A stretch of 64,000 bases of DNA from Antedon mediterranea. Lineage: Eukaryota > Echinodermata > Crinoidea > Comatulida > Antedonidae. This document shows positions 38,601 to 58,100 of the stretch, piece after piece. Within the stretch, counting starts at the first letter, position 1, and the number at the start of each line of letters is the position of its first letter. A program made the translations under genes and the position numbers. The DNA lies in assembly GCF_964355755.1 (NCBI RefSeq), contig NC_092674.1, forward strand, positions 29,438,001-29,502,000. The letters run 5' to 3'. The notes under the pieces were generated by a model. It ran no database searches and was not told the origin of the DNA. It saw only the letters and a list, made by a program, of their open reading frames with translations.

Positions 38601-41600
38601 TTTCAATCCATTTGGATCTCTTATTACCAATCAGAATTCTCCAAGCGATGATTACGGAACAGGAAGAACATTATTGGGAGTAGACGTTGAAGGTATATTT
38701 TAATGTTTATTGGACTATAAAGCTCTGTTTACACTTTAAAACTAATTTGACAAAAAAAATGTGATGTGCCCAAATATGGTAGTAATATGACATCATCGTG
38801 TCCATATATGGGCACACAATAAACCACATAATATGGCTTACAATAACCTGTCTATATTTCTCTTGTAGCTGAGCAAAGTTGGTATGATTGGATGTTCCCC
38901 TCAATGTTAATATGGGGTATCAACAGCATTGTTGCCCTATTTGTGCTGGCTAGAATCTTGATCTACGGTGAACCAGTCACTCACACCAACTCAAAAGAGG
39001 CTGTTAGCTTCTGGAGGCACAAGAAACAGGCTGACCTGGATCTGGCAAGAGTAAGCAAATTTATATTTACTTTACTAACAATGGTTCATATGCATATTTT
39101 GTTGTTTATTCCATAATTAACGCACTTTTGTAAGTTGTTCCTAAGTACAGATGGATACCAACAGACTAAATTATTTATTTTTTAAATTTTCCTATATTTT
39201 TTTTCTATCCTATTGCCAGTAAAATTGTATTATGTTCAATTGTATGTTTAGGGTGATTACGCATCAGCTACAAGTCAACTCCGTCTTTGTCTAGTTGCTC
39301 TTGGACGACCTCTACCAACCTCAAGAGTTGACCTTGCATCGTGTCTTGCATGGAACTGCCTTCGACACGTGCTAAACAGGTTGTGGATCGGTCGATTGTT
39401 GGTTCGAGGAAGGTTACGTGGAAACAACAAACCATCCGATGTTAAGGTGTCTGCTAAAAATGCATCTTTGATCTACCATAAGTTACATCAGTTGTATATG
39501 ACTGGTAAGCCTATGCTTCATTTTATGTGGATAGATTAATGTATTTAACTTGGTTCAAAGCTATAGAGGCATTATTGCTATACAATATGAATACTTGAAG
39601 GAAATGCAACTTTAAAATTGATTGTGAGAATGGGACAATGGGAAAATACTATGCCTACTATTATTTATTTATTTGAATGTTACTATGATGTGTGATGTAA
39701 ATATTTGAGTGATCTAACGAAAATGTCTTCACTTTATGTTCATCTCATTGCCTACCCTAAGCTTTCTTTAAATTTCATTTTTATTATTACTTTTTCAGGC
39801 AAATCTTCTGACGGCCTTGTACATGCTGTGAACATGGCTTTAAGCGCAATGAACTTGGCCGAAGTAGCTGGAGATGTAATTAGTAAGGACACCTTAGCTG
39901 AAATATATGTCACAACTGCTGTACATATTAAAACACATGTCCATAGACGACTTCATATCTTTTCAGTAAGTACAAACTTTACTATGAATGGGGAAAAGAG
40001 TTAAATTGAGGTTACTCTTGTTCACCGTATGTGTAGTTCCACTTGAATAGGGAATGAAGATGTATTATTTTGTGTGTATAATTTATAAACTTTTTAAAAA
40101 ATTGTCATACATATTAATATATCAATGACATCTTTCAACAGAGATATTTTCTAAGTCGGGCAAGACATGCATGTGCTGGTCAAGAGGGTGCTATTCCTCC
40201 TTCGTTACAGTGGCTATTTCATCCTGCTGGGCATAGCTTCTTTGTTAGTGGCAACTGGAATTGTGAAACTATTGTTGAGAGTATGTTTACAACTACAGGA
40301 AATTGTGGTATGTTGAAAAGTTCTTTTAAGCTCTCAAACTGCCCATATGAATATGTGTCCTTTAAATATTTATAATTTTGTTATGTAATAGTTATGCTGG
40401 CGGATATAATAATCTCTATCTAGTCTCAAGTTTGTACCTAGTCTGTTGAAATATTTTTTTTCCTCTTTTTTAATTTTAGCGGATCCCCTGTCGCATATTA
40501 GTAGAGCGTTCCGTGAAAACTTGCTTGACAAAGCACTGTACACCCTTGTAGCACCAACACAAAAACAAACCAATAGAAACACAGCAGTAACGTCTAATAC
40601 AGATGGGTAAGTTGATTGATTTGATATGACCTAAGATTAGAATGTTTGGACACTAGTTTGAAAAAAATGTGATGAATATGGTAGTGATATAACATCATAG
40701 TTTGATAGTGTGGACAGAGCTTAAAACGCATTGTGATTATTTTCAACAGAATTGCACAGAACCAGTGTTCAGATGTCTGTCAATACCTACAGCTTCTTAG
40801 TGAGTGTTCAGACACAGCTGGGCCACCTCAGCAGGCATCCTTCGCCATTGGATCAAACATGTCTGCAGCCACAGGTATGTTATCTTTTGAAGAAAATATA
40901 CTTTATCCGGTTTTTAAATACCATCTGATAGTATTGTATTTGTAGACAATTTGCTAATTTATTTTCTTTATTAGGCTCAGATCCAGTCTCCAAGTGGTGG
41001 TGTAACATTATTCTTGTAGCGACACATTGGCTGCAGGGTGATGATACGGCTGCAGAGAGGCTGTATTCTAGTATTGAGACACTCCCAATACAATTACAAA
41101 ATAAAGAGTAAGTTGAAGAAATGATTGAAAACAAAATGGAAAAGTAATGATGTTGTTAATGTTTTATAGAAAATCACTTTTTAAATAATTTTTACAGGGA
41201 TCCATTACCAAATAGTCCGATTTTTTTTATGGAAATTTATTTTTGCTTCGTAATTTTTACAGGGATCCATTACCAATAGTAGTTCAATTGGCTTTCAAAG
41301 CAAGACGCATTTTCTTGTCCGATTCCAAGAAGGACCAGTTTAATGAAGAGTGTGTTAGATTATGCAATAAATCAAGTAAATACTTACAGAAAAGCCTCAG
41401 CTTAGCAGACCAACCAAATCAAAGTATTACACAGGTAAATAACATTGTTTATATCGTAAAGAAGATATAAAAATATGACCACACCTACAATTAAGCTGTT
41501 TGGTGCAATGTAGCCACGGCCATAATATGAGCTGTTCCTTTATTCCAGCAAGTCATGTCAATCTCTTTGGTGCATTGTAGTTGCATTGCATGTTATTGTT

Positions 41601-42688
41601 ACTATGCAGTGCTCCAACATTGCAACATAGAGTTTGACTCCACATCAGACTTCATCATCAGCGTCATTCAGTTCACCGAGTTCATCCTCCGCACCGTCAT
41701 CTGCATTTATTAAGTCATTAATTGCATTGAAAGACTAAAGCTCTTTCAAAATCTGCCCAAATATGGTGGTGATATGCCTAAACTTTTGTAGTGATATGCC
41801 TAAATATGGTACGGATATGCCTAAATACGGTAGTGATATGCCTAAATATGGTAGTGATATGAAATCATGTCCATATATAGGCACAGTACATTTTTTGTCG
41901 CATAAAGTTTGATAGTGTAGACAGAACTTAATAATTTAATTTATTTTTGTAGGCAATTCAATTGCTGGTTTGTGATTGGTTGTTATCAACAAGAACAGCT
42001 GTGTGGCAAAAACAAACAGGTAACCAAGGTACCATCAGTTCCACCATTGAGCTGTCAGCCTTCCAGCAAGACCTGGCTAGTCTCAGGAAACTTGCCAATG
42101 TTTTCAAACCAGCTATGGGTAGCGTGTCGAGGCACGAGGCAACGGCACGTTTGATGGCAGGGGCAAATCCAAAACGTACGCAGCAGCTGTTGGATAGAAG
42201 CCTGCGACGGAGAGTCATAAACAGTGCTAATAATGCCATTAAAGGTACAGTACAAATTTGATTTTTTCTTTCATACCCACTGGAATAAGTACCATTAGTT
42301 TGATGTGTGCTTTTGTTCCTATCCCTACAAAAACATTTTTAGACTTAAACCTCAAAATAATTAATGTGATACATGATTTTTTGTTAAATTTGTTGAGAAA
42401 AGTTATCAATATTAATAAGAGCTATATTTCTTAATTTTAGATGATGACATCAAAGTTAGTGACCATAACCGAGGTGCGGCATTAATGATGGCGTGTAAAC
42501 ACCTTCCATCGCAGCTTCTCTCGTCTCCTGGCCAGCGAGAGCGTATGCTCACGGAGGCAGTACAGTCTTTTGAACGAGTAGGTGATCGTAGAAGCGTGCA
42601 AGATTGTCAACAGATGTTAATTTCATTAGAACGAACGAAACCAGTTTGCGTTACAACTTGTCAATCCACCCCGATTCCGTGTTGCTAA
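35492..42688 (+). CDS. SREBF: Sterol regulatory element-binding protein, 15 exons
   Basis: Membrane-bound bHLH-ZIP precursor that controls sterol and lipid genes. Exons: 35492-35603, 36099-36691, 36805-37068, 37983-38103, 38378-38692, 38869-39050, 39252-39504, 39799-39965, 40142-40307, 40480-40606, 40750-40874, 40975-41107, 41263-41434, 41953-42244, 42441-42688. They total 3,270 nt, 1,089 aa, against about 1,140 in vertebrate SREBPs. Order: acidic N terminus; Gln-rich activation region; bHLH-ZIP about 288-360 with IEKRYR, whose Tyr marks SREBPs; membrane segment 1 (DRTRMGLC...NPF, 423-443) with the Leu-Cys/Asn-Pro features of site-2 cleavage; luminal loop with RTLL at 460-463, fitting the site-1 RxxL rule; membrane segment 2; SCAP-binding regulatory domain. 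The ATG at 35492 is the first in frame with the acidic start; the upstream open frame begins with GTG and is probably 5' UTR. A single SREBP, not SREBF1/2, is expected in an invertebrate. Confidence 0.96.
36099..36691 (+). CDS. SREBF: SREBF exon 2: Gln-rich activation region
   Basis: Codes [20 protein letters not shown], then a Pro/Thr stretch and long Q runs ([32 protein letters not shown]). The reading frame and both splice sites fit. Low-complexity region typical of SREBP transactivation domains. Confidence 0.93.
36805..37068 (+). CDS. SREBF: SREBF exon 3: basic region and helix 1
   Basis: Contains [20 protein letters not shown] then [16 protein letters not shown]. The HNAIEKRYR basic region with Tyr in place of the usual Arg is diagnostic for SREBPs. 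Donor gtaact. Confidence 0.97.
37069..37982 (+). other. SREBF intron 3
   Basis: 914 nt. A tRNA-like relic near 37868-37965 carries a B-box-like ggttcaagtcc at 37920. Otherwise AT-rich. Confidence 0.55.
37983..38103 (+). CDS. SREBF: SREBF exon 4: helix 2 and leucine zipper
   Basis: Codes [20 protein letters not shown] then [20 protein letters not shown]. Matches helix 2 (KSA.LRKAIDYI.FL) and zipper (N.KLKQEN..L) of SREBPs. Phase 1 out. Confidence 0.96.
38378..38692 (+). CDS. SREBF: SREBF exon 5: membrane segment 1 and luminal loop
   Basis: Ser/Pro linker ([19 protein letters not shown]), then [20 protein letters not shown] and the loop ending [12 protein letters not shown]. This aligns with DRSRM.LC...CNP of vertebrate SREBPs. 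RTLL is the likely site-1 protease target. Confidence 0.96.
38719..38817. mobile_element. Family A MITE, copy 9 (right end lost)
   Basis: aaagctctgtttacacttta to tgtccatatatgggcacaca. Two perfect CArG boxes. Makes up over half of the 176-nt SREBF intron 5. Confidence 0.85.
38869..39050 (+). CDS. SREBF: SREBF exon 6: membrane segment 2
   Basis: Codes [20 protein letters not shown] then [20 protein letters not shown]. Contains the second hydrophobic segment; the start of the cytosolic regulatory domain follows ([15 protein letters not shown]). Confidence 0.94.
39252..39504 (+). CDS. SREBF: SREBF exon 7: regulatory domain
   Basis: Codes [20 protein letters not shown] then [31 protein letters not shown] matches SREBP C-terminal domains that bind SCAP. 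Confidence 0.93.
39799..39965 (+). CDS. SREBF: SREBF exon 8: regulatory domain
   Basis: Codes [20 protein letters not shown] then [28 protein letters not shown]...K matches the family. Phase 1 in, phase 0 out. Confidence 0.92.
40142..40307 (+). CDS. SREBF: SREBF exon 9: regulatory domain
   Basis: Codes [20 protein letters not shown] then [30 protein letters not shown] and P..LQWL.HP.G..FF match vertebrate SREBPs closely. Confidence 0.95.
40480..40606 (+). CDS. SREBF: SREBF exon 10: regulatory domain
   Basis: Codes [20 protein letters not shown] then [23 protein letters not shown]......F.E.LL..AL matches the family. Phase 1 in, phase 2 out. Confidence 0.93.
40647..40722. mobile_element. Family A MITE, copy 10 (internally deleted)
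   Basis: ggacactagtttgaaaaaaa, gatgaatatggtagtgatat and right TIR gatagtgtggacagagctta with the middle missing. No intact CArG box. Confidence 0.75.
40750..40874 (+). CDS. SREBF: SREBF exon 11: regulatory domain
   Basis: Codes [20 protein letters not shown] then [20 protein letters not shown]. Phase 2 in, phase 1 out. Confidence 0.9.
40975..41107 (+). CDS. SREBF: SREBF exon 12: regulatory domain
   Basis: Codes [20 protein letters not shown] then [25 protein letters not shown]......A..WL.GDD..AE.LY matches SREBPs. Confidence 0.94.
41180..41290. repeat. duplicated 3' splice site before SREBF exon 13
   Basis: tttttacagggatccattac occurs at 41190-41209 and again at 41255-41274, 65 bp apart. 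Only the second continues into [14 protein letters not shown] in frame; the first would shift frame. Confidence 0.9.
41263..41434 (+). CDS. SREBF: SREBF exon 13: regulatory domain
   Basis: Codes [20 protein letters not shown] then [20 protein letters not shown]. Phase 2 in, phase 0 out. The start is chosen by frame from the two duplicated acceptors. Confidence 0.92.
41737..41930. mobile_element. Family A MITE, copy 11, internally expanded
   Basis: Right half typical (gcataaagtttgatagtgta gacagaactta). The inner unit gatatgcctaaatatggtag is repeated about five times between 41756 and 41862. One intact CArG box (cccaaatatgg). Confidence 0.82.
41953..42244 (+). CDS. SREBF: SREBF exon 14: regulatory domain
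   Basis: Codes [20 protein letters not shown] and on to [32 protein letters not shown] and Q.LLD..LR match SREBP C termini. Confidence 0.94.
42441..42688 (+). CDS. SREBF: SREBF exon 15: C terminus
   Basis: Codes [20 protein letters not shown] then [20 protein letters not shown] and ends [10 protein letters not shown], taa at 42686-42688. R..AA.LMLAC..LP..LLS.PGQR matches the family. Confidence 0.95.
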
Positions 42689-44525: not shown

Positions 44526-46781
44526 ATGGCTTCGGAAGTAGCAAAAGAAGATTTAAATTTGCTTTCCAAATGTCCGAAAGATAGGATCGAAGCGGTACAA
44601 TAAGCGTACTCTTTATAATAGGCTATTATTTAATTGTCCTCTGTAAATATTGATAATAGATATGAACGCATTATACGTTTATTTGCATGCATTTTCTTCT
44701 AGGCCAGGTTGTCGGGCTTGTCGCCTCACCAAGAAATGATCTGAGCGCCCCAGATAAATCAATGACAACTGCGTACATCTAGTTGTATATACAGGCCTAG
44801 GCTTTTTGTCAATGGGCTCTTTAACTTTAGCAACACGAACTATCAATAGAACATAATTACATGATAGGATCTATAAATTTCAAAACCATAAAACAGGGCC
44901 CTGTTTATTTGTAATGGAATTTTGAATTAAATCAATGCAGCCCACAGTCTTTCTTATCAAAAAAGAAAGGCCTACTAAGAAATGTGAAAATGTATTATTA
45001 TTTTTCAGTTCTGTCATGGGTTGATTGATGGATTTATAGGTAGAAGCAAACTAAGGTATAAAGACTATGGTGAATTATGGACAATGGAGGAATGGTTCAA
45101 AGTAGTTGATGCTTGCCAACGCTGTGTCAAAAGGATGTCTCGCAAACAGTTAACAAAAGAAGAGGTATTCAGGATTCTGTAATTGCATGCTATAGGACCA
45201 TTTGTTTAGTGAATCGATTCACTATCCTTCTTAAAGGTGGTGGCAATCCTGTTCACAAGACAAAACGTATACACAAGATGCTCTACATAAACAAAGTCTT
45301 ATTACAAGTCTTTGGGAGTGGAGTTGTAATTTGTCATTAGAAAAAAATCCTGAAATATGACAGGACTTGAACCCAGGACCCTTGGATTGGTTGCCAAGTC
45401 TTATAACCACCAAGACACAACTCTACTATTTGATGTACTACAACAAATCTTTACTGGAAAAATGCACAATTTAAAAGGAAAAAGAGTGCATTTAAACGGG
45501 TCTTAATTAAAAATGGAGATAAACAATTTCAGTAGTAAATATACTGTATGTGACCATGACATCACAGACCTCTGCTTTTATACTAGATTTTATATTTATT
45601 AGTATTGTGTATTGTGATTCAATTTCAACATACTTATTATCTTTTTATATCCTTTTGTATCTTTTGTTTCCATAGATTTCTCAACTTTTTGATGGAGTTT
45701 CGGATGAATACATCCAGCCTTTTGTAAGTTGTGTCAATGTAAGGTCGGAGGATCTACGGAAACATCTGCTGGAGGAAGTCGCTTCAATATCACATTCACA
45801 TCTTCAAGATTTTGATTGGAAGTTAAAAGTTAGTTAAAATAAAGATTTATAAACCTTGTATTATTCAATACTAAATCAACATATGTTAATTTTTAGACCT
45901 GTCTTAGTCTTAGTCCTGTCTGACACAGGAAGTTCAAAAGCACCAAATTGGTGTAGATTTGATGTTATAATTTATTATTGTTTACAGCTAGCTTTGTCAA
46001 ATGACAAAATATCATCAGTTCAAGAACCGTTGGTGACTGTAGAATTTATTACCAAATCGGGCGACGAAAGCAAATCATTCTCAGTAGAAATGAACAAAGA
46101 AGAATTAAAACAATTTGTAAGCTCAATGGAAGCAGCCAACAAGGTTTGTCACATGACCACATTGTTACCTCATCATTTGAAATTAAGTTTAAAGCCAACG
46201 AGGTTAATATCCATGACCATATGTCTTGTACCTCAAGAATGCAAATTAAAAGTTAGTTTATTATATTGTATGTTAATTGCGATAGTAAATACTCCAGGTC
46301 CATTCATTTTAGACCTGTCCTACAGTAGTTTTTTTTCTGGTAAATGTAAAATTGCATAGAGATATTATAGGGAACTATAATATATCTATGCTAAGAGACA
46401 ACCCATGCAGGATCCAGGAACTGAAGGCTATGTAACCACATCATACCAAACCGCTTCACGTTTTTTTTTGTTCTTTGTGGGCGGGTGATAAATTATGTAT
46501 TTGTGGAAAATTGTGGAATCAATGGAAACATAGCTCAAGCTCAATCATATTTTCCATAAAAATGTAACTAATAAATTGCAGTTTAATAAATTGAATTTAT
46601 TAGCATAACACAATTTAATTTTTTTAAATGTTTGACACAAACAAGCGAAATTGAAAACAGAATCACCCAACACTTTCAGTCTGAAAGAACTCCCTGCCTT
46701 GCTCTGCCTTTGTGTTGGAAACATTTTAATATTTTGTTCTTACTGCTGTTGTAGATTATGGTACAGATGAAGACAGAATGA
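44526..46781 (+). CDS. COMMD8: COMM domain-containing protein 8, 5 exons, complete
   Basis: Member of the COMMD family that acts with CCDC22/CCDC93 in endosomal recycling and NF-kB control. Exons: 44526-44594, 45009-45164, 45676-45828, 45988-46143, 46755-46781. All introns are phase 0; product 186 aa (human protein 183). N terminus MASEVAKEDLNLLSKCPKDR, HN domain FCHGLIDGFIGRSKLRYKDY, then HSHLQDFDWKLKLALSNDKI and the COMM domain PLVTVEF...MNKEELKQFV SSMEAANK. AISS.QLQDFDW.VKLALSSDKIA and EMS.EEL..L..SLEAANK of vertebrate COMMD8 match well, which separates it from other COMMDs. Start is the first ATG after the E-boxes, with tag-free frame. AATAAA at 47091 may serve its transcript. An unrelated tRNA-like relic lies in intron 2. 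Confidence 0.94.
45009..45164 (+). CDS. COMMD8: COMMD8 exon 2: N-terminal helical domain
   Basis: Codes FCHGLIDGFIGRSKLRYKDY then GELWTMEEWFKVVDACQRCV and SRKQLTKEE. 52 codons, phase 0 at both ends. Confidence 0.93.
45352..45425 (-). repeat. tRNA-like SINE relic in COMMD8 intron 2
   Basis: On the minus strand: cttggtggttataagacttg as A-box region and gggttcaagtcct as B box, about 55 bp apart. No intact tRNA fold; treated as a SINE fragment. Confidence 0.5.
45676..45828 (+). CDS. COMMD8: COMMD8 exon 3
   Basis: Codes ISQLFDGVSDEYIQPFVSCV and on to SHSHLQDFDWKLK. LQDFDW is the COMMD8-type entry to the COMM domain. Confidence 0.93.
45988..46143 (+). CDS. COMMD8: COMMD8 exon 4: COMM domain
   Basis: Codes LALSNDKISSVQEPLVTVEF then ITKSGDESKSFSVEMNKEEL and SSMEAANK. 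Exon 5 (46755-46781) adds IMVQMKTE and the stop. Confidence 0.94.
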
Positions 46782-47405: not shown

Positions 47406-47853
47406 AGTTGTAAGCCATGGAAATGTATATAAATCAAATCAGCAAAATACAACTCAAAAGGATTTTCACATTATCAAGGTTGAATATTTTAAAATTGACT
47501 TTAAAAAGTCTATTTCCATAAAATGTATTCCTTTAAATATTTTGGGGTTAGCCATGGGACAGATATAGATGGATTTCCAGTTGTTAACCTGTTAACAAAT
47601 CATTCAAAATTTAAGATTTTACCAAAATAGATTAAATTTAGTGCCCCTTGGGGAGCAGTTTTATTGGAAACAATTTTTATATTCTGAGCAAATTTACAGT
47701 GGAGCATGGCATTCACGTATTTGCAGGGAAGAATGAAATTACCTCTTTTTTTTCCTGGTATTTGTAGTTTTTGACATTTTGCAGTACCGTAAATGTTTTA
47801 TTAAAAATTTAAGCTTATTAAACTGATAATATAATATAAATATATGGTTTCCC

Positions 47854-48177
47854 ATATAGCACTGTGGCACAGTGGTTAGAGCATTGGACTTGCAATCAAG
47901 AGGTTGTCGGTTCAAGCCCGGCCCGGTCACTGCAGTGTTGAGTCCTTGTTGAGCAAGATTCTTTATCCACATTGTTCCTCCCACCCAGGTGATAGAAATG
48001 GGTACCGGTATGTAAAAAGTACTGGGAAGGTAAATCAGACTCGTTTGTGCGGGAGGAGTGGCGTACCCCCCACAAACATACACACTTAGTGGAGTCTGGC
48101 CCAAACGCTAAATAAATGGAGATAGGCACCACGGCCGTTAGCATTAGCTTAGGTTTCGACTTTGCCTTATGGTTTCC
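47854..48177 (+). mobile_element. tRNA-derived SINE with 11-bp target duplication
   Basis: Flanked by tatggtttccc on both sides (47843-47853 and 48178-48188). The tRNA-like head has A box gtggcacagtggttagagc and B box ggttcaagccc. The centre gagcaagattctttatccac and cacccaggtgatagaaatgg matches the SINE at 17.7 kb. The clean target duplication suggests a fairly recent insertion. Confidence 0.88.
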
Positions 48178-49453
48178 CCATTATATCTCTAACACTAATG
48201 GTGTGTTGCCAAAACCTGACCTATAACCGTTTTCCATTGGTTACAACCTGTAAGTATCAGTGAGTGTGAAATATATAGCAGCTCAGCGCACACAAGAAAC
48301 ACATTATTGTAGCCGTCTTCTGAAGACACATGGCCGTCATTGACGGATACTTAGTAACAGTTGACTGTTGGTGTACTAGAGATCCACGTTTATTATCATG
48401 CTATACACTTTTTTTTTTTTTAAAGATCGATATCAAAATATGTCTGCAAATTTCATGATTTATTAAAAAAACACACAAAATACATCTTTAAAAAATAAAA
48501 GAACATACAGTATAGTTCAAGAAAATAAAAATTATATTTAGAATAATAAATTAATTTGTACAGAAACGATAAAAACAAACGTGAATAAATTGTTTATAAT
48601 TAATACAATTGTTGTCATAGTTATTCATAGAACAGGAAGTATTGTCGCCCTTTGTTGCCTAAGATATTATCTAACAATCAGTCATTTCTAAAGGTTGTTC
48701 TTTTTACCAATTTAACAGTCTGTTTATGTCTTACAAAATACAATTAAAAGTTGCAGGCACTTATAAAATATGGCTTGGATATCTGATAAAAGCACAACGG
48801 AACAAGCCATGCAGAAAATAGTAAACTTATTACCAATTCCACCATAAACAATGAGTTACTTCATGAACAAACTAATCAGAAAGGTATAAATCATACTGTC
48901 AAATTATAGAAACAGTGCTCATATTCGAAACATGACCTCATATTCGCGTCGAGCATAGCTCATTGGCGAAAGATTCGTATTTTTAGTTGTATGAAAAAAT
49001 GTCTCTGACGGGATTCAGAAATCAGAAATCTAATTCTAAACTACATCCGTGGTGCCATTCTTTATTATTTTCCATTATAAAAAAAAGTGAATAACTATTA
49101 TGTGACATTAAAATGGCATATTCAACTAAAACATTCAAAAAAAATATTTTTCAGGGGTACAATACATCTTTAACAGTAAAAGAAGAATCTTCATATCTTT
49201 ACATAAATATTTTAAATGAATATTGATAAGCTTAACTGTGCATGTAAATCACAATGAGGAAGATACTGACATACAAATTGATATACGCGCGCGCGTTCTA
49301 TACGGTAACTGATGAAAGTTTACGACTTTTGTGCGCGCGTCAATCCTGCTATACCACCAGTGCGTGCGATTCAAGAGACATCCTCGTGACCACTGCATAC
49401 CATAGATGACTGTAAAATTCTAGATATCACTTTAATACACCGAATAATTTTAG

Positions 49454-49621
49454 TTATGCCGAAATTTTCATGAATTTTGAATTGCGTGGATTTAAAGCTC
49501 GCTCTGTCGAGTTCACCCCTATGACGTCACCATTCCTTTGTATACTTATATAATAGTGTGTGCACGGCGAGTAGATAGCCCCATGCAACCGCTCTGACCA
49601 AAGAGTGTTTCGTCGACCACC
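49454..49621 (-). CDS. FGF-like last exon
   Basis: Acceptor ttttgtttgacag just above 49621. SERLHG...YSP...HYYISIQRNG matches the last FGF exon in spacing. Of three frames only this one stays open to a natural end with this pattern. Stop taa at 49454-49456. Confidence 0.5.
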   Translation of the reverse strand, partial: GGRRNTLWSERLHGAIYSPCTHYYISIQRNGDVIGVNSTERALNPRNSKFMKISA

Positions 49622-51420
49622 CTGTCAAACAAAAAGATTTGGTAACATTTATTAAAATTAAAAAATTAATAGTTTAAAAATTGTATATTGAGTGATTGAT
49701 ATAGAGCATCCTATCTAATTTGTTTGATTAAATTTAAAAAAATTTAATTCTCATTTCTTCGATAAAAAAATAATCGGTTACCAAATATACTAGTGTGATA
49801 TAAGCATCAAGCCGTCTTTACCTTGTGGTCCATCCCGTATTTTAATCACTTCTTCTCTGCCAGACCTCCCCTTATCCCCCTTGTGCTTAGCCATCCCATG
49901 CCCAACTGCTGGCTCTCCTCCATCCCTTGTCTCCCCCCCCCCCCCCCCCCACCCGCATGCTCAGCCTCCTCATACATTGTCGTCCCCTCCCCCCCCCCCC
50001 ATGTTGGGCCTCCACATCATTTCGCACACACTATACCTACCCTAGACCTTGCATAAATATCGCCACTTGTTTCGTTGACTGCTATATAATAATCATGTAT
50101 TTTATCTCTGTATTGTACCGCAGTGTTGAAAGTAGTCATATATATCTCAGCTAAACAAAAATAGACACAAATACATTATTAAATAAATATTGAACATTAG
50201 GACTCAAAACTGGGAAACATAAATGTGGTATAATAAAGCATGGAGGTATAAACCTCCATGAATAAAGCATGGAGGTATAAACCTCCATGAATAAAGTAAT
50301 ACAGTAATGTATAATATAATTATACAGTACTTCAAAAAAGAAAAAAAAAAACAAAATAAAACAAAACCTATAAGTAACGTAGGTGTTATCGGTATCACCC
50401 CCAGAGATGATCCACTCGCAAAATGGAGAAAATATCATACCACCAAATATAAAATGTCAATAAAATAGTTGATTCATATTGAGATTGTTCAGCCCCCCGC
50501 AAACCGGGCCGAAAATATACCGTTATTTAGGAACTAACATTGTACATAAATCTATTAATAACAAGTGCAAGTATTGCGCAAGAGCTATTTGATGGGCTGA
50601 CCGAACTGCAGACAGATAATATTATATAAGTGTTGCATTCTGTCTACCATGAGAACTGATGCAATGTTTGTCTGCCCTCCAGATTGGTTGAGGGCATGTG
50701 TCGAAAAATACGGGAATAAACCAATTTTAAAGCCCACCCTTAAAACACACATTTGCTTGTTGAGTAACTCCTCTTTCCAGTTTCCAGTCGATTTAATTTT
50801 TCGGAGCAGGTGTTGTGGAAGACCCTAAATGACTTAAAGGGGTTAGAATTTGAGACCAAAATCTCGAAATAGCACAGGAAATAACTACGTCGAAAAAAAA
50901 ACGTTTTCCTAATTTATTTCGGTGCGTATAACGTAACAATGATCTATTATTCCTGATTCTAGAGGATTACGTTTTCGGTAAAAATATGTTGCGTTTGTTA
51001 AGAGTAAATAATAATAACAATTCAATACCAGGTCTATGCTCTAGACTGAATTTCGACTTATTGGTAAAAAGATAAATATGTTTGCACGGTTCATACGTAG
51101 GCCTTATAATACTTGAGTTTGAACAAAAACAACATTTGTAAAATAATTATGTCTAACTTTAACTTAATTAATTACATTTTCGTATATTATATTCTGAGAC
51201 TGTGAAGTATATATATATATATATTATATTATAGTACGTTGTATTTTCCTTCATTTATTTACTACATGAAAACATTTTTGTAATATATTTGTAAATTTAT
51301 ATTTTAAGTTAGGGTGCCACAGATTAAAAGCTTTGCTTGCTTGTGGTTATCCTGTTTTTCACACTTTATTGTACTTAATTTTAATTTATATTTTTATGAA
51401 TGTTGTGTGAAAAATAAAAG

Positions 51421-51474
<54 letters not shown>

Positions 51475-53551
51475 CATCATACACAATTTCGGAAACGGAC
51501 GTCCATAGTTACACAAAAAAGTCATAAGCTACAGACTTGAGGCAAGTCTAATCATCTTGTTGATGAAAATAGTTACAGATGATGAATGCAAAAGTTACAT
51601 TCACAGAATGCGTGACTGTATTTTAAAAGATAATTTTAAAAGATAATTCAGCCCCCATGCTGATAACCTGTCTTGTACTTTATGTTTTGCTGTAGTTGGG
51701 GAAGAATCCTGAAATACCGAAGTATGTGCTATAATTATTTTTCAAAAAGAAAAACGCTGTTTTCTAAAATAACTAATAAATTTCTTTTTTTTCTGTTTTG
51801 CGACACCGCCGTTGTAACTGCACTCGAAATAGACCAACACTAAAACGTCGTTCCCACTAGAACGCAACGCAGCGACTTATCAACGCAAAGTGTTGTATTG
51901 CGTAATCACAAGTGGGAACCGACGACGCAATAGTGCTGCAAACATCGAAGGTTTGATTTCACGCAGGCGGGGGCAAACACAATTATTGGAAGGGAATTTC
52001 CTTGCGTTGCTAAAGATTGCGTTGCGTCGCTAGTGAGAACCAAGCTTAGCCATTGCTTTTGATTGGTCATTCGTTTGCGTTGCGGTGTACGTCCTTACAT
52101 TGCGTCCTAGTGGGAACCTAGCTTAGCCATTGCTTGTGATTGGTCATTCGTTTGCGTTGCGGTGTACGTCCTTACATTGCGTCCTAGTGGGAACCTAGCT
52201 TAGCCATTGCTTGTGATTGGTCATTCGTTTGCGTTGCGGTGTACGTCCTTACATTGCGTCCTAGTGGGAACCTAGCTTAGCCATTGCTTGTGATTGGTCA
52301 TTCGTTTGCGTTGCGGCGTACGTCCTTACATTGCGTCCTAGTGGGAACCTAGCTTAGCCATTGCTTTTGATTGGTCATTCGTTTGCGTTGCGGTGTACGT
52401 CCTTACATTGCGTCCTAGTGGGAACCTAGCTTAGCCATTGCTTGTGATTGGTCATTCGTTTGCGTTGCGGCGTACGTCCTTACATTGCGTCCTAGTGGGA
52501 ACCTAGCTTACATAACGGTGGTATTAACTATCTTTTAATGAGGACTTTCTCTAACAATTGGATTGTTTCCGTTTTGCTTTGTATCTTTCTTTTTTTCTTT
52601 TAAAATTATAATATGTTCTCTTCATTTCTGGAGTTATTATGAATAGGTTAGGTACCGTACACTCATTTTTCTCATTGTGTTTCAGTCGACTCGTTCGTTT
52701 TAAAATCATTTAGGTTAACACCAACTTTGTAAGTATGATATCAAGTGTCATAATGTCATAAATTACTCGACGATTTGAAATAACGATATTAGATCAGTTT
52801 TTTTCCCCAGTATTATTGGAATTGGAATATTACGTTTTTTTATAAACGAAGAAATGTGCGAATAAAAACGAAACATTTGTAAAACCTTGTTGGAGGGTCT
52901 ATAGAAATTCTAAATAAACCACCTATATTTTAAAATTTTTAAAATAAGTAAAACAAACAGAATGGGAAAATGAAGACTTCAGAAACACATTCATACGACC
53001 GAATACTATGTTAAACAAAAGAAAGAAGAACATTTGTGAGAATGACAACATAAATACTGTACTATCTGCAAGAAGTATACATACTTTGTCTAAAAAGTAT
53101 TCTAACTATTATAAAGTAAATTGTAAATGGTGACAAATTGTACAATAATTGTAGTGAATATTGACACACGGTACTTACATGCATTATGGTAGTTTCTTGT
53201 TGAGGTGACTTTGCCGTCGCCATGTACAACCAAAAACTTAGAACCATACCAAGTTGTTATTTTGCAAGTGTCGTTAACGGTACAAATCGTCATTAAACTT
53301 GTAAAATGGTGAAAAATTCTGACAGACTTCAGTCCTGTCCATGGTTCGAACGACATCCGGGATATTGTGGTTGATTCCAGCGCCGTTGTTGGTTCATCAT
53401 TTGTCGCTGTTGTATTTATGGTGGCGGTGGTTGATTGCGGTATGGTGGTATTGATGGTGGTAGTAGGTAAATCATCCGTCACCGGTGCAGAGTGTGTATT
53501 TAATGATAAAATACTCAAATATAAAGCTACTAGTAATGCATTTGTGTCCAT
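49454..53551 (-). CDS. divergent FGF-like secreted protein (first and last exons)
   Basis: Read on the minus strand. Exon 1 (53551-53179, 124 codons, phase 1 out, donor gtaagt) codes a signal peptide MDTNALLVALYLSILSLNTH, a Thr-rich linker (TTTINTTIPQSTTATINTT) with N-glycosylation sites, then SVRIFHHFTSLMTI and SKFLVVHGDGKVTSTRNYHN. The latter resembles the FGF start (FLRI.PDGTVDGTR). The last exon (49621-49454, 55 codons and taa) codes NTLWSERLHGAIYSPC, then THYYISIQRNGDVIGVNST and NSKFMKISA, which follows the FGF end (C.F.ERLE...YNTY.S...WYVAL.R.G....G..T....FLP). Exon 1 leaves in phase 1 and the last exon enters in phase 0, so a 104-nt middle exon, usual in FGF genes, would join them. I could not place it securely. 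The key aligned motifs are weak, so another beta-trefoil ligand is possible. Confidence 0.5.
49932..50000. repeat. poly-C tracts
   Basis: Two runs of 12 to 19 C separated by acccgcatgctcagcctcct. Likely unstable in replication and sequencing. Confidence 0.9.
50239..50289. repeat. two 22-bp palindromes, period 29
   Basis: catggaggtataaacctcca(tg) at 50239-50260 and 50268-50289. The same catggaggt arm makes the hairpin at 54048-54076. Confidence 0.85.
51421..51472. repeat. (aatc)13 microsatellite
   Basis: Thirteen perfect aatc units. It follows aaaaataaaag, like the tail of a retroposed sequence. Confidence 0.95.
51838..52513. mobile_element. Family B MITE with six 77-bp tandem units
   Basis: Left end cgttcccactagaacgcaac, right end tagtgggaacctagctta. 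The right part is amplified: units start at 52045, 52122, 52199, 52276, 52353 and 52430, each with gattggtcattcgtttgcg. Each carries one inverted CCAAT box. Confidence 0.9.
53179..53551 (-). CDS. FGF-like first exon with signal peptide
   Basis: ATG at 53551 chosen because it starts a classic signal peptide about 30-35 nt after the start site predicted from the TATA box. The longer frame beginning at 53629 runs through the TATA box and is not credible. Donor gtaagta at 53178. Confidence 0.6.
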
Positions 53552-53608: not shown

Positions 53609-53615
53609 TTTTATA
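53609..53615 (-). promoter_or_regulatory. TATA box of FGF-like gene
   Basis: Reads ggctataaaagg on the minus strand, a near-consensus TATA box. The transcript would start near 53585. Upstream on the same strand lie tgacgttg (CRE-like) and attgcaacaa (C/EBP-like). Confidence 0.7.
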
Positions 53616-53629
53616 GCCCCCGATTTCAT

Positions 53630-55006
53630 TACGTATGCACAACGTCATTTCCCCCAAGGCACGCGTTGTTGCAATTACACCGCGTCCCGCGTGGACAACG
53701 GCATTTTATGTAATTTTATTTGCAGAACGAATTACTGTATTGTCAAAACTATATCAACTATAGACGTTTCCAATTAACCCTAACAAAAAACATGGCCGCC
53801 AATGGGCCCACCTGTTGCAGATATGATTTACTTTGATTTATAGTCTGATTGCGTCTATTATCATAATGGTAAGACGTTTTATGTAACACCAATTAAATTG
53901 GAACACATTAAATTCCGGATGTGTTCGTAATAAATCGGAGATTTTTTAAGTATTTCTTCGTGGAAAGGTATACCTTAAAACAATATAGGCCTAATACAAA
54001 TTAAGTTGTACGACGCCTTTTATCAAATTAAATTAGGCAATTATATCATGGAGGTATCTATTTTTATACCTCCATGATTATATTGTTTTGTTTGTAGGTC
54101 TTTCAATTGTGTGGCATTATTACATACACTGACTTTTGTTAACAACAATACGATAAAGACTGAGATAAAATAAAAGTAGGAGAAATCCTAACAAAAGAGA
54201 AAACGACATAACTCCAATAGACAGAGCACATTGTGTCTCTTTATTTAGAGTTACACTTTATTGTTTCATCTGAAATTATTCGGGGAATTTTCTAGCATCT
54301 CTGGAATTGGTTTTGTAACAGTGAAAAGTGTGACGTTGTAATTCCAAATAGTTTGAAAGAACTATCATGATAGGTGCTATAACAAAATTATAACCAAATC
54401 CCAATTCTATTTTAGATGAACGTGAGCAGTATTTGGAAGTGATTGCTTTCACCACACAAACAATGTTAAAACCTGAATCTGGCCTACCACTTTACTCAAA
54501 GATTATGCACATAAAGTGGTTGTAGGTAACAGTATAGAAACGCTCGAGTAACGAAAATGTTTAAATGCTGTTGAAATGGAAATGCATTGCAACCTACACC
54601 TCCCAAACTTTGAATGAAAAGAAGTTTTGATGGTGTTGCTGCGTTGTGTGGTGTAGTGTGAATTGTAGAAAGTAATTAAAAGAATGACGTAACTAAACAA
54701 TGCATTTGAGACAATTGAAAGGCCACGCTATTTAGCTCTTCTATTCTATCTATTTGGAGACAATTGATTTATTATTATTATTATTATTGTTATTTTAGCT
54801 CCTTTTGATATATATTTGTATAGCTTCTTCTACAGTGTATGAACAGGGTTTTCGTCTCTGAAATAAGTTATAAAACGAGGAACGCGGGTTGTTTTCCATT
54901 AAATATCGTGGACCATTAACATTGCATTCACTTGGCAGACACAGTTGAGGTGTCTTTGCGCGGGTACTATCTATTACACTGTTGTTATATAGTCGCCGCC
55001 GACAAT
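53630..55006. other. divergent spacer between FGF-like and SLC13 genes
   Basis: About 1.4 kb. CpG-containing near the FGF-like promoter (accgcgtcccgcgtgg), then AT-rich with a tatcatggaggtat...atacctccatgatta hairpin at 54045-54082. No other gene seen. Confidence 0.5.
54045..54082. repeat. 38-bp hairpin palindrome
   Basis: atcatggaggtat and atacctccatgat arms separated by ctattttt. Shares its arm with 50239-50289, so probably the relic of one element family. Confidence 0.75.
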
Positions 55007-55105: not shown

Positions 55106-58100
55106 GTAAGTTAGTAAAGACTTATATAAATAGATACGAACTACAATGTTGTATTTGGCTAGACAGTGTAGTACCTTTGGATGATAATTTTGAATATAGA
55201 TCTTATTTCTGGGAAAACGTACTTGTAACTCCGGTGTAACAGTTACCTTTATGGTGGAGGACTAAACTATGCCCTAATTTCCACCAGCTGGACCTTGTTG
55301 TTACCCACCCTTATTTGATAGAATACTGTCATAAAATAAGACCTAGTCTGAAGGAGACTACCTCATGAAAGTGCATACGGTCGGTGACTGTGACTACTGC
55401 AGATTATTAAACTTGTATATTTTCCAAACACAATCAATAATGTGGACTCTTCTTAGAAATATTGTATTTTATTTTTCTAGAAATTATTGGTACCGTACGT
55501 ATATTAGTAGGGCAGATTCCAAATAGGCCTACTTTTGAACGGCCGGTTCAGGAAAATAACGCATTGTTTAAGTAAAACTGATGCACAGTGTATATTCTGT
55601 TTATTTGTATTGACCCGCATAATCTTCTTCAAACGAGCAAATCTTTAAGTCATTATAGTTATCTTGCCAAGGGTATATGTGTCGGTGTCACTCAGCTCTA
55701 AGCCCATTTGTTCCTAGCTGCCACCATTTTGTGTCATCATAATCATTTTTTTTCTTATCTATATATTTATATGAGGGTCAAAGTTTTATTTTAAACTGCG
55801 GTCATTCCATGCCATCTTGGACTATGTATTTTTGTATTCTTATGGCTAATAAAGAAATGAAAATATTAAATCATGCAGAGAGAAAAATTTTGTTTATGAA
55901 AAACAAAATATATTTTTTCCTTTTCTGTTTCAGGAGGCATACACAGCGTATGTCATTATCATTATGGCAGTGTATTGGTGTACAGAAGCGATGCCATTGG
56001 CTGCTACGTCTTTCCTACCTATTATAATGTTCCCTCTTTTTGGCGTACTGCCTTCGAGCACTGTATGCGCGCAATATCTGAAAGACCTTAACTTTTTGTT
56101 TTTCGGGGGACTACTGGTTGCTGTTGCAGTGGAGCACACAAATCTACACAAACGAATTGCATTGAGAGTACTTTTGTTCATGGGGTCTAAACCAAAGTGG
56201 TAAGTGTGGCGATAGACGAGGTATGCGCCGCCGAAATGTGTTATAGTGATTTTATTATTATTATTTATTCAGGCAAAAGGTTTCTTGGGCTCAACGCAAT
56301 TACGTAGACCGTTGTATGTAAAGCTTGGTTCCCACTAGAACGTAACGCAAGGACGTAAACACAACGCAAGCGTTTTAACCAATGACAAGCGAAGTTATAG
56401 ACAGTTAGCAATCACAAGCGAATAAGCCATCGCTTGTGATTGGTCAATTCACTTGCGTTGCGTTACGTCCTTGTGTTGCGTCGCTAGTGGGAACCACGCT
56501 TAATTTGACTGACAGTCGCGACGCGAAGCATCATCCGAACGAAACAAGCTTAAGAGTTTAGACCATTGCATTGAATAGGGGTACACATGCGTTTGCTATG
56601 TTTTTATTGAATAAAGACGTACACAACATCTTTTCAATCCACTTAATTCACCACTGCACTCTACACCATGTTGACGGGCGTCAAATTATGTGTTCGCTTA
56701 TATTTTAATAACAATTTTGTTTGTAAAATTCTAGGTTAATGTTGGGCTTCATGATAACAACAGCATTTTTATCGATGTGGGTTAGCAACACTGCAACTAC
56801 TGCCATGATGGTACCGATCGTACAAGCTGTCATCGATCAAATTAAAAAGGTACAATTAACTTTTAAAATTCAGGCCCGTATGCAGCATTTATAATGGGGG
56901 GGTGCGAGCGAAGCGAGCAACAATGGCTGGGGGCCAGGGGGCCGCCAAGGGCCCCCGGTCAGTTATTTGACGTTATTGACGTTCTAAAGACTGATTTAAG
57001 ACTCTCTGTTGTGGCTTGGGCTAGTTGAACGATGGACACCAGAACTTAACGCTTTCATGATGAGGCCAACTCAGCAGGGGTGGCGCCAGGATCTTCCCGA
57101 CGCGGGGGCTACATTCCCCGACGAGGGGGCTATGCGAGCGAAGCGAGCATCACTAGGCTGAGGGCCAGGGGGCCGCCAAGGGCCCCCGGTGGGGGCCGCC
57201 AAGGGCCCCCGGTGGGGGTCGCCAAGGGCCCCCTGTGGGGGTCCAGTGGGCGAAGCCCCCGGAAGCAACGCGTTCTAGCGTCATTTGAGGTCTTTTTAAT
57301 CAGATTTAGGGTAGCCATTTTTTCCATTTTTTATAATGCATAAATAAAATACTGCGTGCAAAAAAACGATGCGCGATGACTGTTTCAATCCATATTTTTC
57401 AATTTAAAAAATAAAAGTTCAAAGAAAATTTAGAAAAATAGAGTTGGAGGTCCCGGAAATTGGACTTATTATACTTCAAAACATGAACAAAAATATATAA
57501 GTCCCTATCATGGGTTGTGACTGAGCTAAGAAATGTTTGAAAAATAGAGATGTTAGGTCCCGGAAAATGTACTTCTTGTTCTTCGAAATATGACCAGCTT
57601 TATTGTTGGGGCTGAGCTAAGAAAATGTTTAAAACTAGAGCTGCAGGTCTTCTGAAAAAATTGCATTTTATACTTTGGAAACATCAGGCCTAGAGGCTTA
57701 AAAAACGCAAGCGTAGACCTTTTTCAGTCGGGGAAATAAGTTTATTCCTCCCAGGTGTATGCATGCGTACCATCTGGACTTCCGAGGTGTGAGAAATTCA
57801 TGACATACAGGATATTGAAAATGTAATAACTATAGCTAATGTTGGCTAAGCGAAAATGGCATGTTTTTTTGTTTAGTAATGGATTAAAAATTTATTTTAG
57901 GTGCCCCACGGTACAGAAGGTTACTTGTAAATTAAAAAATTGGTGAACAAACGAACAATTAACATAATTCGTTTTTGCTGTAGTGTAGCGTACGTCGACG
58001 CAGTACACGACGTAACCGTCGGTAAACTTCGCCTGGAAAATAACACATTACACATTTTTGTCCCTGGATGAAACTTGATATCACGCGTCTCGACCCAACG

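Follow-up and report, generated by a model that had tools for sequence, protein, structure and literature searches.

The question raised by this locus is whether two weakly matching open frames on one strand are the outer exons of a single gene for a divergent fibroblast growth factor (FGF), and whether an exon of the expected phases lies between them. FGF repertoires are used to trace the evolution of signalling, and the small FGF counts of some invertebrates rest on homology searches, by which a gene of this kind might be overlooked. The counts given in excerpts of two papers are one FGF in a sea urchin and six in a hemichordate (PMC3420111), and two in a brittle star, one in sea urchins and five in hemichordates (PMC8180256). 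The window, by which we mean the whole stretch of 64,000 nucleotides that was analyzed, corresponds to C5:29438001-29502000 in a genome of 354 Mb that comprises 18 contigs. Judged from its sequence, the locus very probably encodes a divergent secreted FGF in three exons.

Gene layout and surroundings

The gene was read on the minus strand of the window. A TATAAAA box (53609..53615) was read from the sequence 58-64 nt 5' of the ATG at 53551, with which the coding part of exon 1 begins (53179..53551, 373 nt). Exon 1 encodes a leader, a Thr-rich linker and the first FGF-like strands, carries SKFLVVHGDGKVTSTR close 5' of its GTAAGT donor, and exits at this donor in phase 1. The leader resembles a signal peptide and is hydrophobic, with a mean Kyte-Doolittle value of 2.48 across residues 5-17. 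Intron 1 (50151..53178, 3028 nt) is followed by exon 2 (50041..50150, 110 nt), which is entered in phase 1, left in phase 0, encodes the peptide (S)EIYMTTFNTAVQYRDKIHDYYIAVNETSGDIYARSR and is flanked by TTTTTGTTTAG on its 5' side and GTAGGT on its 3' side. Intron 2 (49622..50040, 419 nt), likewise read from the sequence, leads to exon 3 (49454..49621, 168 nt including the stop codon). This last exon is entered in phase 0 after CAG, provides the C-terminal FGF-like strands with the motif series SERLHG..YSP..HYYISIQRNG..VNST, and closes with a TAA stop that ends at 49454. An AATAAA (49061..49066), 388 nt 3' of the stop codon, is a candidate polyadenylation signal. When joined, the three exons encode 216 residues composed of leader, Thr-rich linker and FGF-like core.

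The preliminary description of this DNA had named a TATA box, a leader, a Thr-rich linker, an FGF-like stretch and the motif series of the last exon, and all of these were present on the minus strand. The start of the last exon, which had been placed at 49622, was moved one base further in to 49621. A middle exon of 104 nt had been predicted from the phases of the outer two; the exon found at 50150-50041 has the predicted phases (1 in, 0 out) and is 110 nt long instead. An alternative in-frame donor for this exon at 50032 scored 9.8 bits compared to 10.0 bits for 50041 in the cassette scoring described below, and an exon 2 that ends at 50032 in place of 50041 is possible.

Repeats were observed in and around the introns. 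A tandem array with a 77-nt period occupies 51953-52568 of intron 1, its central three-unit frames being 97-98% alike, and inverted matches to this array occur at 51850-51879. Palindromic units around CATGGAGGTATAAACCTCCATG are found as two head-to-tail copies at 50232-50289 in the same intron and as a third unit of this type (66%) 5' of the gene at 54040-54068; from their sequence, these units look like a small inverted-repeat element. Long minus-strand G runs were noted in intron 2 at 49921-50001, just past exon 2.

The neighbours identified in the window lie on the plus strand and include a COMM-domain frame (45853-46359, Pfam 45.1 bits), an exon of an SLC13-type transporter (55853-56203, Pfam Na_sulph_symp, 70.1 bits) and a mir-33 precursor (41565-41630, 64.7 bits). 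Nearby frames were read as parts of an SREBP gene, the usual host of mir-33; the one such frame tested gave no Pfam match, and neither did a LIM-like frame at 32140-32547. The presence of mir-33 fits a bilaterian animal. Of two tunicate markers, neither GH6 (for which a negative search does not demonstrate absence) nor bacterial-type cellulose synthase was matched, the protostome marker mir-2 did not turn up in the 60 candidates scored out of 131623, and a search for COX1 was negative. A partial tRNA match on the plus strand at 47864-47923 (33.9 bits, model positions 7-64 of 71) is perhaps a tRNA-derived repeat.

Middle exon, profile evidence and family membership

Profiles for each exon were built from other FGF genes with the window gene left out. 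Pieces of FGF9 and FGF20 were included together with loci of the genome in the profiles of exons 1 and 3, and the exon 2 profile was composed of the genome's loci without these. The search covered the 2114 stop-to-stop frames of the window that are 20 residues or longer. By this approach, exon 1 ranked first (13.7 bits, E 0.0045), exon 2 ranked second (9.1 bits, E 0.11) after a frame at 57299-57403 (9.5 bits), and exon 3 ranked second (9.4 bits, E 0.14) after a frame at 47407-47565 (11.2 bits). On their own, exons 2 and 3 therefore lack significance, each being outranked by another frame.

The middle exon was also scored as a cassette, defined as a splice-bounded segment 80-140 nt long whose phases fit, and was compared to a profile of nine further FGF loci from the genome. 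Exon 2 was the best of the 22 cassettes located between the outer exons (a count that includes exon 2 twice, with its two donors) and, at 10.0 bits, the best of the 1021 cassettes of the window (414 on the minus and 607 on the plus strand). The runner-up besides exon 2's own variant overlapped exon 1 and reached 3.7 bits. When the core was scored against a whole-core profile (built from those nine loci together with FGF9 and FGF20), it gave 23.9 bits, a score reached by none of 5000 shuffles (4888 reported with a score, best 16.8 bits). These results bear on the reading that the locus consists of three unrelated open frames that resemble FGF by chance. The weak match of each exon alone is as such a reading would have it, but the three frames rank 1, 2 and 2 of 2114, are arranged in order on the same strand inside 4.1 kb and fit in phase, the middle cassette tops all 1021, and the core score is beyond the shuffles; coincidence of this kind has hardly any chance of being correct.

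The joined product was then compared to Pfam families, for which the curated cut-offs are 24 bits for FGF (PF00167) and 23.1 bits for Fascin (PF06268). The joined product matched Pfam FGF at 24.5 bits (E 3e-5), a margin of 0.5 bits, and the core matched at 26.1 bits (E 8.9e-6). No Pfam FGF match was detected for any of the three exons alone or for the reversed core. Three of the 20 other cassettes, joined to the outer exons as wrong middle pieces, gave products of 13.5, 14.7 and 13.0 bits, below the cut-off, and two of the five other cassettes joined create a stop codon at the joint. Among the joins tried, the cut-off was passed only with the middle exon, which lends support to the divergent FGF proposed in the preliminary description; the profile search of the joined product called for there placed it narrowly above the FGF cut-off and below that of Fascin. 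Three other FGFs of the genome, used as positive controls, scored 56.2, 86.4 and 65.0 bits with the same FGF model. The suggestion that homology annotation may miss the gene is supported for single exons only, none of which gave an FGF match. The locus was also absent among the matches listed by genome-wide FGF searches in which the best candidates alone were scored.

Further comparisons were made by profile alignment, signature and structure database. By hhalign against a profile of eight other FGFs of the genome, the core aligned over 66 columns with E 2e-4 and a probability of 47%, compared to E 0.75 for the reversed core. For the FGF signature (PROSITE PS00247), six of eight fixed positions were present across the joint of exons 2 and 3, a count reached by 113 of 20000 shuffles; the positions missing are the Cys and the Phe/Leu/Met. 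By the same count, FGF9 and FGF20 have all eight positions each and the nine other loci of the genome have 3-7. A search of the PDB with the core alone returned two teneurin chains (E 0.7 and 0.79) and no FGF. A PDB profile search with all ten sequences matched FGFs, with FGF9 at 4.6e-22; this match is no evidence for the window gene by itself, since nine of the ten rows are other FGFs.

The exon layout provides a separate line of comparison. Among the nine FGF loci of the genome that were modelled, the middle exon is 107 nt in six, 110 nt in one and 104 nt in two, and can be read from phase 1 to phase 0 in all nine; these models were made by visual inspection with knowledge of the phases to be expected, and they show fit to a pattern rather than a blind test. 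Exon 1 was modelled in six of the nine. The three-exon core of the window gene, with its middle exon of 110 nt from phase 1 to phase 0, fits this layout. Membership in the FGF family is well supported by gene architecture and profile taken together, with no strong pairwise match.

A beta-trefoil family other than FGF, fascin-like or interleukin-1-like, was weighed in light of the second Pfam match of the product, which was to Fascin at 16.8 and 18.4 bits. Both scores are below the 23.1-bit cut-off, and similarly weak Fascin matches (21.5 and 17.1 bits) were obtained with two unambiguous FGFs from the same genome. The window gene shares its exon layout with the FGF loci of the genome, and its protein has a leader, whereas fascins are cytosolic. 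We consider membership in such a family very improbable.

A decayed or non-transcribed FGF copy, whose frame happens to stay open, is somewhat less remote than this but still quite improbable. Such a copy would agree with the high divergence of the sequence and with a genome search in which no close paralogue was detected (the gene's own three exons and one match at E 8.7 were returned). By contrast, the frame is open through all 216 codons, and the leader and the splice sites of the two introns are preserved. For a frame fixed beforehand, the chance of staying open over 216 codons is approximately 2e-6 at the stop frequency of the introns, uncorrected for the choice of exons. The distance from other FGFs (best pairwise z 5.7) implies that a decayed copy would have had time enough to accumulate stops. 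On the evidence of its sequence, the gene at this locus is intact, though difficult to recognize exon by exon, and its product is a strongly divergent new member of the known FGF family.

Proposed protein and mode of action

By analogy to known FGFs, the product of the window gene is most likely a secreted ligand of an FGF receptor (FGFR). Many paracrine FGFs carry a secretion signal, and the leader of this protein would direct it into the secretory route. The Thr-rich linker (residues 21-66), in which 20 of 46 residues are Ser or Thr, is likely O-glycosylated. Six N-glycosylation sequons are present in the product, of which that at N123 is created by the joint of exons 1 and 2, and they suggest a glycosylated ligand. 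The protein is thus pictured as transcribed, secreted and glycosylated, with a core that would fold as a beta-trefoil, bind an FGFR-type receptor tyrosine kinase and signal through it.

The segment before the last strand holds basic heparin-binding residues in FGF9 and FGF20. In the alignment, as judged by eye, basic residues are fewer in this segment of the window protein, and a sequon (N198) lies within it. For these two reasons heparan sulphate binding may be weaker than that of FGF9 or FGF20, of which we are less sure; the core is basic overall (pI 9.57, with 19 Lys and Arg compared to 11 Asp and Glu), which argues against weaker binding. It can be imagined, with low confidence, that the gene evolved beside the FGF expansion described below into a heavily glycosylated ligand that is freely diffusing or antagonistic and no longer heparan-sulphate-bound and short-range, with the mucin-like linker as a spacer.

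FGF loci of the genome and closest relatives

Searches of the genome with FGF exons and proteins revealed about 12 related FGF loci that constitute an expanded group. Six of these lie in one 100-kb cluster between C10:17.612 and 17.710 Mb, single loci are found at C10:13.66, C10:23.87 and C5:29.33 Mb, and three are located on C9 at 12.47, 13.86 and 14.30 Mb, one of them as exon 1 only. Some exon matches of the group appear to contain a stop codon, and one exon 1 of the group has no in-frame Met 5' of its leader-like stretch. Further FGFs were found at C5:10.63 Mb (C5:10.631-10.641 Mb), which is FGF9/16/20-like and matches FGF20 in the PDB at E 2.1e-17, at C5:27.01 Mb (Pfam 65.0 bits), and at C4:1.07 Mb, where exons 2 and 3 were read by eye and exon 3 alone gives 20 bits, under the cut-off. 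Including the window gene, the total is roughly 16 FGF loci, a number that comes from our own grouping of exon hits rather than from annotated genes.

In the part of the literature on FGF repertoires and on divergent or expanded invertebrate FGFs that was covered, no paper describes this gene or such a cluster, as judged by titles and the opening lines of abstracts. The window gene illustrates that a probable FGF can escape an exon-by-exon search yet be recovered by way of its gene architecture. If the group of the source organism is thought to be FGF-poor, FGF counts in that group need a second look. The expansion around the window gene may be more striking than the gene itself, whose kind is known.

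Two approaches to subfamily placement gave different answers. In a pairwise comparison with 11 sequences, the C5:10.63 Mb gene was best (score 61, z 5.7, reached by 0 of 300 shuffles) and the next ones had z 3.0; by phmmer, the C5:10.63 Mb gene scored 10.5 bits and the C5:29.33 Mb gene was a close second at 10.0 bits. In a tree, the window gene was joined to the expanded group (98/98), but its end branch measured 8.64 changes per column and five of nine inner branches were drawn open. The pairwise scores favour the C5:10.63 Mb gene and the tree favours the expanded group; the tree was not relied on for the subfamily, since the long end branch invites long-branch error and inner branches are open.

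Compared to the expanded FGF group, the window gene has the same middle-exon phases (the middle exon being 107 nt in the six members modelled), and one member is located about 160 kb away. By contrast, identity to the group is 19-28%, a long insertion in exon 3 of the group is absent from the window gene in the alignment, and the six modelled exon 1s of the group are less Thr-rich as judged by eye. The FGF9/16/20-like gene at C5:10.63 Mb likewise has the middle-exon phases in common with the window gene, and DYYIAVNETSGDIYA aligns with GYYVAMNDTGVIYS in this pair; it differs in that identity to the window core is 26% and in that it scores 86.4 bits with Pfam FGF, compared to 26.1 bits for the window core. 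For vertebrate FGF9 and FGF20 (PDB 1g82 and 3f1r), the pairwise score with the window gene was matched or beaten by 18 and 29 of 300 shuffles, respectively. In the alignment, loops are shorter in the window gene and its last strand is preceded by fewer basic residues, but the order of the motifs aligns with that of both proteins over the core.
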